64,000 nucleotides of DNA from Haloplasma contractile (lineage in GTDB: Bacteria > Bacillota_I > Bacilli_A > Haloplasmatales > Haloplasmataceae): positions 1-64,000 of the forward strand of contig JAENYC010000015.1 in NCBI GenBank assembly GCA_016841945.1, written 5' to 3'. Each line of letters starts with the position of its first letter. Position 1 is the stretch's first letter. The position numbers were made by a program, and so were the translations under genes. Shown here piece after piece: positions 151 to 19,483 of the stretch. The notes beneath the pieces are model-generated. The model was given only the letters and a program-made list of their open reading frames with translations, was not told the DNA's origin and made no database searches.

Positions 151-906
151 TTATAATTTTTTAAAATTTGTCAATTGTATAAATGATTCTGCATCTAGTG
201 ATGCACCACCCACTAAGGCACCATCAATGTGTTCTTGTTCCATTAATTCTTTTATGTTACCAGGTTTTACAGAACCACCATATTGTATACGTATACTTTT
301 CTCTACTTCTTCATTATATAATTCTTTTATCACTGATCGAATATATCCACAGGTTTCATTAGCAATATCAGCGGTTGCTGTTTTACCTGTCCCTATTGCC
401 CAAATAGGTTCATAGGCAATCACGATATCTTTTACTTGTTCAGCGCTTATTCCCTCTAATGCCTTTTTAGTTTGTGCTTCTACTACTTGATTTGTTGTAT
501 TGTTTTCACGTTGTTCTAAATGTTCACCGACACATACAATTGGTATTAAATCATATTTATACGCAGCATGAACTTTTTTATTTACAAGTTCATCAGTTTC
601 ATTAAAATATTGACGTCTTTCACTATGTCCTAAAATCACATATTTTACCCCAGTATCATTTAAGACAAGTGGAGATGTTTCACCAGTAAATGCGCCTTTT
701 TCTTCATAATGCATATTTTGTGCCCCAATCTTTAAATAATCTCCCTGTCTTTTAACTAAACAACGTAATAATACGTCAGGTGCACAGATAACTGTATCCA
801 TCTCCTCATCAGATGGTACAGATTGATTCACTGTATAAATAAAATTTAAAGCTTCATCACGCACTTTATTCATCTTCCAGTTTCCTGCGATAATTGGTTT
901 TCTCAT
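151..906 (-). CDS. tpiA: triosephosphate isomerase
   Basis: Interconverts dihydroxyacetone phosphate and glyceraldehyde 3-phosphate in glycolysis, cytosolic. The 251-residue length is standard. Catalytic residues are in place: Lys11 in GNWKMN, His94 in ILGHSERR, Glu166 in [11 protein letters not shown], and the phosphate-gripping loop YGGSVKPGN followed by GALVGGASL near the C terminus. The start is preceded by AAGGAGAG at good spacing. It stands apart from the usual gap-pgk-tpi-pgm cluster: its upstream neighbour is a Spo0A-like gene and a separate promoter-like -10 lies in between, so it is probably monocistronic or terminal in a two-gene unit. Confidence 0.97.
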
Positions 907-978: not shown

Positions 979-1755
979 CTAAATTTTTCTAAGTGATTGT
1001 TTGATATTATGCCTAATAATATAATCTTTTTGTTCTTTTAATGTCTTTATACATACTTGTAAAAAAGTTGAAACAGATGGATAACTGTTATGATAATGTC
1101 CAAATAATATTTTTGCATAAAAATTATCACTCTTAGAAAAAGAGGATTTTATACACAGTCTCATTGCTTTTTCGACACTACAAGGACTAACATTAAAATG
1201 TTTACCTACCATCTTATAAATATTTATCATATACTTATTTATATTTTCGCTATTTTCAAGCATGCTATTCAACACATATTCAAAGTATTTATATCCAATA
1301 TATGTTTTTAACAATCCGATCTGTTTGAGTAAATTAATTATCTCTATTTGCGGTTCAAAGTATTTTTTACCTATTACTTTTCTTTCTATTTCTAACTGAC
1401 ATAATAAATGATAAATATCTCTTATACTCATATTTAAATTGTGGACATAATAGATTTGTAATTGTTGACACTTATCTCTTATAAAATCATTAACAAATGG
1501 TGTAATGAGAATTATTATCTCAGGTTTATGTCTTGTTTTTAATAATAGTGATTCTAATGCATATAAACCCGTAATATAAGTTAATGCATTTTTTACAATC
1601 ACGACATCAAATCTATCTAAGTTTACTAAATTCAATAGTGCCTCACCATCTAATACATAATGATTTAAAGAATATAAATCTTCATCTTGAAAATACTGAT
1701 TGACTTTATTGATAAATCCTTCATTATTATGTGCAAATAAAACACTTTTTTTCAT
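979..1755 (-). CDS. Spo0A-like regulator with degenerate receiver
   Basis: Two-domain protein (about 258 residues). Numbering here is from the upstream ATG at 1758. Residues 1-120 align without gaps over the first 56 positions to the Spo0A receiver, and residues 140-245 align to the Spo0A C-terminal DNA-binding domain (INLLKQIGL...IGYKYFEYVLNSM...VSPCSVEKAMRLCI, with the recognition-helix Ser, Val, Glu, Ala and Arg positions retained). The receiver is degenerate: the acidic pair Asp10-Asp11 of Spo0A is His10-Asn11, the phosphoacceptor Asp56 is Lys56, and the conserved Lys near 108 is lost; Thr86 is kept. It should therefore bind DNA but not be switched by phosphorylation. The second ATG (1755) is better spaced from GGTGA than the first. 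It has its own good promoter. No sporulation genes adjoin it. The family call is strong; the target genes are unknown. Confidence 0.8.
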   Translation of the reverse strand: MKKSVLFAHNNEGFINKVNQYFQDEDLYSLNHYVLDGEALLNLVNLDRFDVVIVKNALTYITGLYALESLLLKTRHKPEIIILITPFVNDFIRDKCQQLQIYYVHNLNMSIRDIYHLLCQLEIERKVIGKKYFEPQIEIINLLKQIGLLKTYIGYKYFEYVLNSMLENSENINKYMINIYKMVGKHFNVSPCSVEKAMRLCIKSSFSKSDNFYAKILFGHYHNSYPSVSTFLQVCIKTLKEQKDYIIRHNIKQSLRKI

Positions 1756-1787
1756 CATTTATCACCATTTATCTAAGATATATATTT

Positions 1788-1816
1788 ATTATATATCACT
1801 TAATTATTTAATTCAA
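1788..1816 (-). promoter_or_regulatory. promoter of the Spo0A-like gene
   Basis: TTGAAT, 17-base spacer, TATAAT on the minus strand, about 30 bp upstream of the start codon. Close to the vegetative sigma-A consensus. Confidence 0.7.
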
Positions 1817-1828
1817 AGTCTTTTTAAT

Positions 1829-1850
1829 AAAAAAAGGGACAAATTGTCCC
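1829..1850 (-). terminator. intrinsic terminator of the lemA operon
   Basis: GGGAC/GTCCC hairpin (1836-1850) followed on the minus strand by a run of seven U, directly after the lemA stop. Confidence 0.85.
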
Positions 1851-1859
1851 TATACAATA

Positions 1860-2426
1860 TTAGAAATTCATTTCTACATCTTTACGTTTATATTCTTCTG
1901 CTTCGAAGAACTCTCTTGAAGTAAAATGAAACATTCCTGCAATGATATTTGATGGAAATAATTGTACTTTTTGATTATACGCTGAAACATTCGCATTGTA
2001 TACTCTACGAGCTGCTTGTAAATGTTCTTCAACATCAGATATAGACATTTGTAGTTGTTTAAAATTCTCACTTGCTTTTAAATCGGGATATTGCTCAACT
2101 ACGACATTAATCGCTCTCATTGCTTCATCCATTTGTGTAACAATTTTTTGTTTATCTTGAATGGATGCTTGGTCTAAATGAACTGAATTACGTAAAGCAA
2201 TTACCTTCTCCAAAGTTTCACGTTCATGCTTCGCATAACCTTTTACAACATCTACCATTTTCGTTAACACATCAAAACGCTTAGTTAAAGCAACATCAAT
2301 ACCTGATTCAGCTTCATTCACCTTGATTTTACCTGTCTGTAAACTGTTATAACCTCCAATTATCCATAAGAGAATGAAAAATACAATTATACCTAATACT
2401 ACTAAAATAATTCCAATAGGACCCAT
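1860..2426 (-). CDS. lemA: LemA family protein
   Basis: 188-residue LemA protein: one N-terminal membrane helix (about residues 4-25) followed by a long helical domain with the family pattern YNSLQTGKIKVNEAESGIDVALTKRFDVLTKMVDVVKGYAKHE (shown only in part by its landmarks: N-E-A-x-S-x-I-D-V-x-L-x-R-R/K-x-D-x-L) and a C-terminal AYN...FPSNIIAGMF...FFEAEE segment typical of the family. The N terminus is probably outside, with the helical bundle facing the cytoplasm or the outside depending on topology. The molecular function of LemA is not established. It is co-transcribed with the upstream DUF3137-like gene (15 bp gap), a pairing that recurs in bacteria. RBS GGAGG. Confidence 0.9.
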   Translation of the reverse strand: MGPIGIILVVLGIIVFFILLWIIGGYNSLQTGKIKVNEAESGIDVALTKRFDVLTKMVDVVKGYAKHERETLEKVIALRNSVHLDQASIQDKQKIVTQMDEAMRAINVVVEQYPDLKASENFKQLQMSISDVEEHLQAARRVYNANVSAYNQKVQLFPSNIIAGMFHFTSREFFEAEEYKRKDVEMNF

Positions 2427-11174: not shown

Positions 11175-12125
11175 TTAAATCTTCATATCATTGATTAAAT
11201 TTTGTAGTATAGTTGCACTTTTTTTAAATTTTTCTTGTGCTTCTGTATTCATGTTTATTTTGACAACTTCTCTTATTCCTTGTCGATTAATGATGGCTGG
11301 CATCCCAATGTATAATTTGTCGACATCATAATATTTTTCGACATAACTACTCACTGGAATAATCATATTAGAGTCATTAAAGATTGCTTTTGTGATATGA
11401 CATAAAGCCATTCCAATACCATAATATGTCGAATTTTTACGTTCAATAATTTTATAGGCTGCATCGCGTACATCGACATAAATCTTTTCTAAATCCTCGT
11501 ATTTGAACTTTTCATGCTCATTAATAACGTCTAGTAACGGTTTAATACTCACATAGGCATTACTCCATAGTGGAAATTCGCTATCCCCATGCTCCCCAAT
11601 AATATAGGCATGAATATTTTTACTGTGTATGTTGAGATAATTCGACAAGAGATAACGTAGTCTTGCTGAATCAAGTGAGGTACCAGAGCCAAACACTTGT
11701 CGAATTTCTAAGTTTGATGTCTTATATGCAACATAAGTCATAATGTCGACTGGATTTGTGGTAATAAGTAAAATGCCGTCAAAATTTTGTTTCATTACAC
11801 TTTCGACAATACTTTTAATAATCTTAGAATTTTTATTCAACAAATCAAGACGTGTTTCATCTTCTTTTTGCGCTGCACCAGCCGTTACAACAACAATATC
11901 AGCATCTTGACATGAATCATAATCTCCAGCGTATATCTTCATGTCTCTTGGCGCAAAAGCTAAGCCATGATTTAAGTCCATCGCTTCTCCTTCTGCTTTT
12001 TCTTTATTTATGTCAATGAGTACCAGTTCATCACAACCTCCTTGATTCAGAAGTGCATATGCATAACTCATACCAACAAATCCAGTGCCAACTAAAACGA
12101 CTTTTCGCGTATCATCACATTTCAT
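11175..12125 (-). CDS. ldh: L-lactate dehydrogenase
   Basis: 316 residues; reduces pyruvate to L-lactate with NADH. Rossmann motif GTGFVG at 13-18, catalytic His179 in IIGEHGDSEFPLWS, substrate-binding Arg in SARLRYLL and Gln86-Lys87 in the specificity loop, where malate dehydrogenases carry Arg. The start at 12125 is chosen because AGGAG lies 8 bases upstream; the frame is open for ten more codons. It lies only 37 bp downstream of the yolD-like gene with no terminator or obvious promoter in between, so it may be read from the DNA-repair operon promoter. No Rex-type site was seen in front of it. Confidence 0.96.
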   Translation of the reverse strand: MKCDDTRKVVLVGTGFVGMSYAYALLNQGGCDELVLIDINKEKAEGEAMDLNHGLAFAPRDMKIYAGDYDSCQDADIVVVTAGAAQKEDETRLDLLNKNSKIIKSIVESVMKQNFDGILLITTNPVDIMTYVAYKTSNLEIRQVFGSGTSLDSARLRYLLSNYLNIHSKNIHAYIIGEHGDSEFPLWSNAYVSIKPLLDVINEHEKFKYEDLEKIYVDVRDAAYKIIERKNSTYYGIGMALCHITKAIFNDSNMIIPVSSYVEKYYDVDKLYIGMPAIINRQGIREVVKINMNTEAQEKFKKSATILQNLINDMKI

Positions 12126-16361: not shown

Positions 16362-19300
16362 TTATCTCCTCCTATCACATCTTAAGCATCTCAATGATTC
16401 AGCAAGTGCGTTTAGTTTATGGAAACCAATAGCAACTTCTTTATTATTAGATGTTCTTTCCTTAGGATCAAGATATTTCATTGGGAATCTTTCATGTTCA
16501 ACAATTTCCTTTTCATCTTGTCCACATGGAATATCAATTTCTTCACCTGTGTTTAATATTCCTTTACCACCTAAGAAAATATCAATTGATTTGGCAACTT
16601 TCTTACCATCAGCAATCGCAGTAATAACTGTATCAGAACCTCTTGCAACATCTCCACCTGCAAACACACCATCTAAACGTGTCATTAAAGTATCTTTATC
16701 TGTCACAAAAGTGCCCCATTTTGTTACTTCAACTTCATCTTTCTTAATAAATGGTAAATCTGAATATTGACTGACAGCAGGTATAATCATATCAGCTTCA
16801 ATTTTAAATTCAGTGCCTTCAACAGGGACTGGTCTACGTCTTCCACCAGAATCAAATTCAGTTAGTTCCATCTTCAAGCATTCAATTTCCTTCACTTGAC
16901 CTTTTCCATGTATCTTAACTGGTGAAACTAATTCAATAATCTTAATATTTTCTTCCTGAGCATCTTTAATTTCTCTACTATCAGCTGGCATATCATTTAT
17001 TGTACGACGATATAATACAACAACTTCTTCTGCACCTTTTCTGATTGCTACTCTTGCAGCGTCAATTGCAGTATTTCCTCCACCAATGACTACCACTTTA
17101 CCTTCAACTTTTTCGCATTTATCTAAATGAACATCTCTTAAGAAATCCAATCCATGATAAACACCTTTTAATTCTTCGCCAGGTATTCCTATCTTACGTG
17201 AGAATTGTGTTCCAGTTGCAATATATACGGCATCATGTTTTTCATGTAATGCTTCAAAACTAATATCTTTACCAACTTCAGTATTTAAGTTAATTTTAAC
17301 ACCAACTTGTTCAATTAACTTGATTTCTTTTTGAAGTACAGCTTTTGGTAATCGATATTCTGGAATACCAAAGGCAAGTACTCCACCAGCCACTGGTTGT
17401 TGCTCATATACTTCAACATCATAACCTAATCTTGCAAGATAATAACCACAAGTAAGACCTGAAGGACCTGCCCCGATTACACCAATCGTTTTCCCTTTTT
17501 TAGGGAAGACTAAATCCATATATGGTTCATCATCTTTTAATACTTCATCAGCAATATAACGTTTTAAATCAGCAATTGCGATTGACTCATCAAGTTGTGC
17601 TCTTCTACATTTACTTTCACATGGATGTGTACATACTCTACCACAAACGGCTGGGAATGGATTGTCTTTTCTAATTAAATTATATGCATCTCTTAATCTT
17701 CCTTCAGAAATTAAAGCAATATATCCAGGAACATTAACGCCAGCAGGACAAGCATTTTGACAAGGTGAGATAAATAACTCACTACAAACACCTGCACGAC
17801 AATACTTATACTTAATATGTTCTTCATATTCTTCTCTGAAGTACTTTATCATACTTAAAACAGGATTTGGTGCTGTTTGACCTAAACCACAAACGGCTGT
17901 TTCTTGTATCGTTTTACCCAGTTCTTCTAGTAGTTCAATGTCTCCTTCTCTACCTTCGCCTTTAGTAATTCTTTCTAAGATTTCTAACATTCTCTTTGTA
18001 CCTAATCGACAAGGAACACATTTCCCACAAGATTCTTCTTGTACAAATTCCATAAAATAGCGCGCCATATCAACCATACAAGTATCTTCATCCATACTGA
18101 TGAGGCCACCTGAACCCATAATTGCGCCTAATTTCTTTAATGTATCATAATCAATTTTAGTATTTAAAAATTCTTTCGTGATACATCCACCTGATGGGCC
18201 ACCTGTTTGAGCTGCTTTAAAGATTTTATTCTTAGGTAATCCACCACCTATATCAAATAAAATATCTCCTAATGTAATTCCCATTGGTACTTCAACAATA
18301 CCACTATTATTAATATCACCAGCGAGTGCGAATACTTTTGTTCCCTTACTACCTTCAGTTCCAAATTGATTAAACCAATCACTACCTTTATGCAAAATCA
18401 CTGGTACATTCGCAAAAGTCTCAACATTATTAATGATCGAAGGTTTTTCATATAAACCTTTTTCAAATGGGAACGGAGGTTTTTGCGTTGGCTCTCCACG
18501 CATTCCTTCAATAGATGCCATCAATGCAGTTTCTTCACCACAAACAAACGCACCAGCACCAATTCTAATTTCAAGGTCGAAATTAAATCCACTACCTAGG
18601 ATATTTTCTCCTAATATACCACTTTCTCGTGCTTGTGTAATCGCATTTTGTAATCTTTCAACAGCAAGGGGATATTCGGCTCTAACATACACAAATCCTT
18701 TTGTTGCACCTATCGCGTATCCTCCAATTGCCATCCCTTCAATCACGCAATGAGGGTCACCCTCTAGAATACTTCGGTCCATGAATGCACCTGGGTCTCC
18801 TTCATCAGCATTACATATGATATATTTCACATCACCAGGCGCGTTTAAACCAGCTTCCCATTTAATACCAGTAGGGAAACCTCCACCACCACGACCACGT
18901 AAACCAGAATTCTTCATCTCTTCAACGACATCTTTTGGTGATAAATCATTAAGTACTTTTGAAAGGGCAAAATACCCATCATTTGCGATATATTCTTCAA
19001 TGGAACCATAATTAATAGAACCACAGTTCTTCAAAGCAATTTTAACTTGTTGCTTAAAGTAATTGATATCTTTTAAATGTGGGATGTACTTTTCTTCTTT
19101 AATATCATAATACGTTTTTTCTAATTTAATTTTTCCATTAATTAAATGAGATTCAACTATTTCAGGTATATCACTAGGACTTAATTTTGTATAAAATACA
19201 TCACCGGGTTGTACAATCATCACGGGTCCAATATCACAAGTTCCCATACAACCAGTATCTGTTACATAAACATCATTTGTTAATTTTTTAACTTCCAACT

Positions 19301-19457
19301 CTTTTTTTAGTGCATCCATGACATCATAACAGTTAGATGATATACAGCCTGCACCACCACAAACTAATACCTTATATTTGTAATTCTTTATGTTTCCATC
19401 ATACTCTGTTTTGATCCGTTGTAAATCTTCAATCGTTTTTATTACACACTTACTCAT
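16362..19457 (-). CDS. hydB: HydB (NuoF-like) fused to a GltD/NfnB-like oxidoreductase
   Basis: 1031 residues in two joined proteins. Residues 25-115: thioredoxin-like [2Fe-2S] domain (CGGAGCISSNC...GCMGTC). 130-475: NuoF FMN/NADH domain (GLRGRGGGGFPTGIKW, CNADEGDPGAF, GAGAFVCGEETALMASIEG). 476-535: [4Fe-4S] ligands in ESCGKCVPC and VCGLG. Then CRAGVC, which in ordinary HydB leads into a 2x[4Fe-4S] ferredoxin domain, is instead followed from about 563 by the GltD N-terminal cluster motif (SPCQNACPAGVNVPGY, CGRVCTHPCESKC), an FAD motif (GVIGAGPSGL near 659) and an NAD(P) motif (VVVIGGGNTAIDAA near 788) to about 965, and a short Cys-containing tail (CLRCD). The ATG at 19457 is spaced correctly from AAGGA; an in-frame GTG lies three codons earlier. 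The fused module should bind FAD and NADP(H), giving the complex a second pyridine-nucleotide port; that function is inference. Confidence 0.92.
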   Translation of the reverse strand: MSKCVIKTIEDLQRIKTEYDGNIKNYKYKVLVCGGAGCISSNCYDVMDALKKELEVKKLTNDVYVTDTGCMGTCDIGPVMIVQPGDVFYTKLSPSDIPEIVESHLINGKIKLEKTYYDIKEEKYIPHLKDINYFKQQVKIALKNCGSINYGSIEEYIANDGYFALSKVLNDLSPKDVVEEMKNSGLRGRGGGGFPTGIKWEAGLNAPGDVKYIICNADEGDPGAFMDRSILEGDPHCVIEGMAIGGYAIGATKGFVYVRAEYPLAVERLQNAITQARESGILGENILGSGFNFDLEIRIGAGAFVCGEETALMASIEGMRGEPTQKPPFPFEKGLYEKPSIINNVETFANVPVILHKGSDWFNQFGTEGSKGTKVFALAGDINNSGIVEVPMGITLGDILFDIGGGLPKNKIFKAAQTGGPSGGCITKEFLNTKIDYDTLKKLGAIMGSGGLISMDEDTCMVDMARYFMEFVQEESCGKCVPCRLGTKRMLEILERITKGEGREGDIELLEELGKTIQETAVCGLGQTAPNPVLSMIKYFREEYEEHIKYKYCRAGVCSELFISPCQNACPAGVNVPGYIALISEGRLRDAYNLIRKDNPFPAVCGRVCTHPCESKCRRAQLDESIAIADLKRYIADEVLKDDEPYMDLVFPKKGKTIGVIGAGPSGLTCGYYLARLGYDVEVYEQQPVAGGVLAFGIPEYRLPKAVLQKEIKLIEQVGVKINLNTEVGKDISFEALHEKHDAVYIATGTQFSRKIGIPGEELKGVYHGLDFLRDVHLDKCEKVEGKVVVIGGGNTAIDAARVAIRKGAEEVVVLYRRTINDMPADSREIKDAQEENIKIIELVSPVKIHGKGQVKEIECLKMELTEFDSGGRRRPVPVEGTEFKIEADMIIPAVSQYSDLPFIKKDEVEVTKWGTFVTDKDTLMTRLDGVFAGGDVARGSDTVITAIADGKKVAKSIDIFLGGKGILNTGEEIDIPCGQDEKEIVEHERFPMKYLDPKERTSNNKEVAIGFHKLNALAESLRCLRCDRRR

Positions 19458-19483
19458 TATTTTCACATCCTTCTCCGTTTTTC

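Follow-up and report, generated by a model that had tools for sequence, protein, structure and literature searches.

Spo0A is the textbook response regulator, and its phosphorylation commits the cell to development. The locus studied here raises the question of what a Spo0A homologue does when its receiver has no phosphorylation site. An earlier note on the window (the whole stretch of 64,000 nucleotides that was analysed) had placed such a gene at 979-1755 and proposed that its product would be a reassigned master regulator, acting without a phosphorelay in bacteria that possibly do not sporulate.

A Spo0A homologue that lacks the phosphorylation residues

The gene is indeed found there, on the minus strand, with two tandem ATGs at its start, and the ORF extends to 1758, one codon beyond the earlier limit. 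The 259-aa product of this gene (979..1758), hereafter the paralogue, was delineated from its ORF, its Spo0A_C match and syntenic orthologues in 7 further genomes. Pfam Spo0A_C matched residues 139-238 with 61.2 bits (E 1.1e-16; cut-off 25 bits), and Response_reg scored 20.1 bits, under its cut-off of 30.2. Using phmmer, residues 4-115 aligned with the B. subtilis Spo0A receiver (1dz3), ungapped through residue 56 as had been noted before, and residues 138-232 matched the Spo0A DNA-binding domain (1lq1). The protein failed the Spo0A equivalog test (NCBIfam TIGR02875), with 54.7 bits against a cut-off of 200.

Structure prediction recovered both Spo0A folds. An AlphaFold model based on the orthologue alignment (mean pLDDT 86.6) contained a complete (beta-alpha)5 receiver and the six Spo0A_C helices. 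The receiver-fold N-terminal domain (residues 1-122; 1393..1758, minus strand) was matched by Foldseek to the phosphorylated Spo0A receiver 1qmp_A (TM(target) 0.77, rmsd 2.4), and the DNA-binding domain (residues 135-259; 982..1356, minus strand) to the Spo0A-DNA complex 1lq1_D (TM(target) 0.87, rmsd 2.0). The same elements were predicted for the most divergent orthologue (29% identity) with a pLDDT of 74.

Aligned position by position with the canonical Spo0A encoded elsewhere in this genome, the paralogue carries His and Asn instead of the Mg-binding Asp10 and Asp11 (codons at 1726..1731, minus strand) and Lys instead of the phosphoacceptor Asp56 (1591..1593, minus strand), which confirms the substitutions first read from the sequence; residue numbers follow B. 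subtilis Spo0A. The active-site lysine of the KPF motif is also missing, while the Ser/Thr position is retained as Thr86. Hence, the paralogue is devoid of the residues required for Asp56/Mg2+ phosphorylation chemistry.

The recognition-helix pattern, previously described as kept, is preserved only in part. The helix (residues 192-209; 1132..1185, minus strand) was located from the model and the alignment and bears the motif SVEKAMRxC. Among the helix residues, some of which contact bases in Spo0A, the equivalents of V212, E213, A215 and R217 are retained, but that of R211, a residue that Spo0A requires to function, is Ser (Ser194) in all eight orthologues and that of R214 is Lys in seven of the eight. 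With R211 invariably replaced, the DNA preference may have shifted; R211H arose spontaneously, together with a change in DegU, in a sporulation-deficient variant of P. polymyxa (PMC9195935).

A canonical Spo0A and sporulation genes in the same genome

A search for PF08769 returned matches at three places in the source genome (G000): contig C71, contig C53 and the paralogue. The C71 gene (C71:40138-40902) encodes a canonical Spo0A of 263 aa, adjoins SpoIVB, has D10, D11, D56, Ser and Lys all present, and clusters in the tree with the other Spo0As of the family. The DNA around it has a tetranucleotide profile like that of the window (r 0.98). The paralogue, which is not beside spoIVB, is thus not the sole Spo0A of the genome.

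The rest of the genome also contains full-length SpoIIE-type matches under the model cut-off, a SpoIVA match above cut-off, and sporulation-type sigma factors that all score below the SigF cut-off, including two adjacent ones on contig C5 that we read as sigE/sigG. Together, these matches point to a sporulation programme. Of the phosphorelay genes that the earlier note had proposed to look for, Spo0B gave no match in this genome, and a classical phosphorelay is not evident. Since an intact Spo0A, which the same note had named as the finding that would speak against its reading, coexists with sporulation genes, we abandoned both the idea of a lineage that may not sporulate and that of a reassigned master regulator.

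The third PF08769 match, on C53 (C53:16270-16659), is a 129-aa gene consisting of a Spo0A DNA-binding domain only, and resembles phage-borne truncated spo0A (PMC10294663). It lies about 0.7 kb inside one end of an apparent intervening element of the skin type. This element would interrupt a dacF-like gene for a D-Ala-D-Ala carboxypeptidase, which is intact in two relatives (G001 and G003) but here split over two contigs (C53:17329-18111; C10:56170-56721 with C10:57413-58843), and a large serine recombinase gene adjoins the C-terminal half of the dacF-like gene, at the other end of the element. Both breakpoints have in common a 10-bp core, ATACCAATAA, and joining them there would preserve the reading frame. 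The element would measure at least about 32 kb, and its excision during sporulation is putative. In the window itself, a 1034-aa ORF at 16362-19466 was read by eye as a NuoF/HydB-type hydrogenase subunit-like domain joined to a glutamate-synthase-like NADPH oxidoreductase domain.

Distribution of the paralogue in the Haloplasmataceae

A syntenic orthologue was found in all eight Haloplasmataceae genomes examined, always with tpiA directly downstream (151..906, minus strand, from ORF and synteny) and lemA upstream (1860..2426, minus strand, named from its sequence rather than by family search); G001 has one extra ORF between lemA and the paralogue. Each of the seven other genomes encodes a canonical Spo0A plus one such divergent copy. 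When 395 genomes of the class were searched, these eight orthologues scored 347-433 bits, far ahead of the next match at 103 bits. The best matches after the orthologues were canonical Spo0As of other families, scoring less than one third of the weakest orthologue, and the two that we inspected have the active-site acidic residues. In the tree, the eight orthologues form one clade on a long stem (support 100/98). The paralogue is best explained as lineage-specific to the Haloplasmataceae and vertically inherited.

Further Spo0A copies of G004 and G006 branch within or beside canonical Spo0A and are duplications separate from the paralogue. One of them (L028, G004 C163) has Asn at the phosphoacceptor position and no active-site Lys, another (L026, G006 C2) keeps the acidic pair only in part, and a third (L040, G006 C15) is intact.

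A phage origin of the paralogue was considered and rejected: no viral contig of IMG/VR encodes a relative, and the two matches in INPHARED are canonical spo0A. These two records (MT836727.1 and MT839918.1, 'Bacteriophage sp.') are unverified human-fecal scaffolds, in one of which (L088) the neighbours of spo0A are ordinary bacterial genes (ABC transporter, glycogen synthase); the two records are probably bacterial contamination.

Two metagenome-assembled genomes carry other reduced proteins. In the Bacilli MAG CSBr16_55 (L055:4677-5207), a Spo0A_C protein of 176 aa, its N-terminal domain much reduced, is encoded in a gap-pgk-tpiA cluster, directly downstream of tpiA, i.e. on the other side of tpiA than the paralogue. 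Its family was not found in the search of the 395 genomes, and a distant relationship to the paralogue is possible. In the Clostridia MAG RGIG5584 (L054:4872-5348), a 158-aa Spo0A without recognisable receiver occupies the usual spoIVB-spo0A position.

Purifying selection and an invariant pocket

Orthologues of the paralogue share a mean identity of 47% versus 87% for canonical Spo0A, indicating that the paralogue evolves fast. Most of the gene comparisons gave a dS above 1, which makes the following omega values rough. Overall dN/dS was 0.12-0.22, lowest in the DNA-binding domain (0.02-0.11) and about 0.23 in the receiver. The receiver of canonical Spo0A has an omega of 0.02, so that the pseudo-receiver evolves at roughly 10 times its rate. 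Such rapid evolution suggests that part of the receiver may be a mere structural or dimerisation scaffold. The fold and the DNA-binding domain of the paralogue are under purifying selection.

Despite identities to the window protein as low as 29%, His10, Asn11 and Lys56 are invariant in all orthologues. They are among only 11 invariant columns of the 121 in the receiver; if columns were random, all three would be invariant with p ~6e-4, a value for n=8 related orthologues that is uncorrected for phylogeny. Synonymous variation across orthologues at codons 10 (CAT/CAC) and 56 (AAA/AAG) argues against copying or sequencing artefacts. Lys56 is fixed in all eight, in agreement with the view that Lys at the phosphoacceptor position is a replacement and not drift. 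Neither free variation at this position nor a decaying DNA-binding domain, which the earlier note had named as speaking against its reading, was seen.

These data bear on two alternatives. Decay of a functionless spo0A duplicate would account for the longer branches and for evolution much faster than in canonical Spo0A. We nevertheless consider it very improbable and rejected a pseudogene, given intact ORFs and synteny in eight of eight genomes, an omega well under 1, and invariant residues in both the recognition helix and the pocket. The second alternative is a regulator switched by a ligand or by acylation, in which the HN...K pocket would hold a small molecule or be modified itself, for instance by Lys acetylation. 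Joint invariance of the three pocket residues in an otherwise variable receiver fits this idea, as does acetylation of GlnR, cited as a precedent (PMC12632262). However, nothing points to a ligand and the invariance may be purely structural, and we regard such a switch as rather unlikely.

Promoter context and 0A boxes

Upstream of the paralogue, a sigma-A-like promoter (TTGAAT-17-TATAAT; 1788..1816, minus strand) was identified by consensus match only, and the same arrangement of hexamers precedes the G001 and G004 orthologues. In the source genome, an intrinsic terminator after lemA (1835..1851, minus strand; 1 found, 0.0 expected) stands between the paralogue and the transcription unit before it. 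The orthologues of G002 and G007 start about 10-20 bp past lemA. This context suggests vegetative, housekeeping-type expression.

The 0A-box-like sites (TGTCGAA) that the earlier note had suggested looking for in promoters did not materialise: the promoter region of the paralogue contains no 0A box, and no perfect TGTCGAA lies upstream of any orthologue. We therefore discarded autoregulation through 0A boxes. Over the window, TGTCGAA occurs 12 times versus 7.4 expected, which is near chance. Five perfect copies fall within about 470 bp (11337-11808), inside a lactate-dehydrogenase-like ORF, and may reflect codon usage.

Relation to Spo0A and to pseudo-receiver regulators

The paralogue resembles Spo0A (TIGR02875; PF00072 and PF08769) in domain order, length, both folds, the equivalents of V212, E213 and R217, and the Thr at the Ser/Thr position. 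It differs from Spo0A by the loss of Asp10, Asp11, Asp56 and the active-site Lys, the R211 to Ser and R214 to Lys replacements, its equivalog score of little more than a quarter of the cut-off, its location away from spoIVB, and its coexistence with a true Spo0A. A receiver fold without phosphotransfer residues is what defines a pseudo-receiver, and this is what we found. Like HP1043, ChxR, WhiI, CmrT and NblR (PMC12632262), the paralogue couples a receiver free of phosphorylation residues to a DNA-binding output domain. Unlike them, its output domain is Spo0A_C instead of the OmpR/PhoB or NarL/FixJ type, and throughout a family it invariably has Lys at the phosphoacceptor together with His-Asn at the acidic positions. 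Judging from its sequence, the protein is a Spo0A paralogue by ancestry that would work like a pseudo-receiver (atypical) response regulator.

Two other systems invite comparison. Phage-borne truncated Spo0As (PMC10294663) likewise have a Spo0A-type DNA-binding domain uncoupled from phosphorylation, but they lack a receiver, whereas the paralogue is a core chromosomal gene whose receiver is folded in the model. C. thermocellum also has a second homologue (Clo1313_0637/Cthe_3087) in addition to its sporulation Spo0A; it is 49% identical to B. subtilis Spo0A, and the passage describing it does not mention loss of the receiver (PMC4890492). A 2025 review, which calls the control of pseudo-receivers a mystery, does not mention Spo0A (PMC12632262). 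Open-access literature on Spo0A paralogues, pseudo-receiver Spo0A, and Haloplasma with Spo0A yielded no description of this protein. Pseudo-receiver regulators are a known class, of which we found no conserved Spo0A-family member reported in the open-access literature.

Possible modes of action

With the phosphorylation site replaced by a fixed Lys and kept under selection, control must be exerted by other means. We consider it fairly probable that this pseudo-receiver paralogue of the Haloplasmataceae binds DNA without phosphorylation, is controlled by its amount or by partners, and modifies the Spo0A regulon through an altered DNA preference. Lys56 and His10/Asn11 would fix the pocket in one state. 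Activity could be set by the amount of protein, made from the sigma-A-like promoter or by read-through from lemA in some genera, and also, or instead, by partner proteins. The changed recognition helix would confer a preference related, though not identical, to the 0A box, so that the paralogue may modify or partition the Spo0A regulon without replacing Spo0A. Precedents exist for several of these steps: the isolated DNA-binding domain of Spo0A, once freed of its receiver, binds without phosphorylation (PMC3485338), HP1043 and ChxR form stable dimers while unphosphorylated (PMC3960148), and WhiI acts solely when heterodimerised with BldM (PMC12632262).

The BldM-WhiI precedent (PMC12632262) also lends itself to a different explanation, in which the pseudo-receiver pairs with the receiver of canonical Spo0A and the paralogue acts mainly by heterodimerising with Spo0A or antagonising it, serving either as a coincidence detector or as a dominant-negative brake on sporulation. 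A receiver that keeps its fold but not its catalytic residues would be apt for dimerisation, the invariant Lys96 of alpha-4 is common to canonical Spo0A, and the latter always co-occurs with the paralogue. However, both genes are present in eight of eight genomes, which makes co-occurrence uninformative, and the receiver is far diverged, with the aromatic K-3 position lost. We hold this explanation to be possible but on balance doubtful. Equally tentative is the proposal that entry into sporulation in the Haloplasmataceae is set by the ratio of phosphorylated to never-phosphorylated Spo0A, via heterodimers or competition.

Whether as the phosphorylation-free DNA-binding regulator that we favour or as a partner, the paralogue may act with or against Spo0A. 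A conserved Spo0A-family protein without phosphorylation chemistry, selected alongside a normal one, is a natural experiment that could show what use is made of an unphosphorylatable Spo0A fold, and how pseudo-receivers are controlled.
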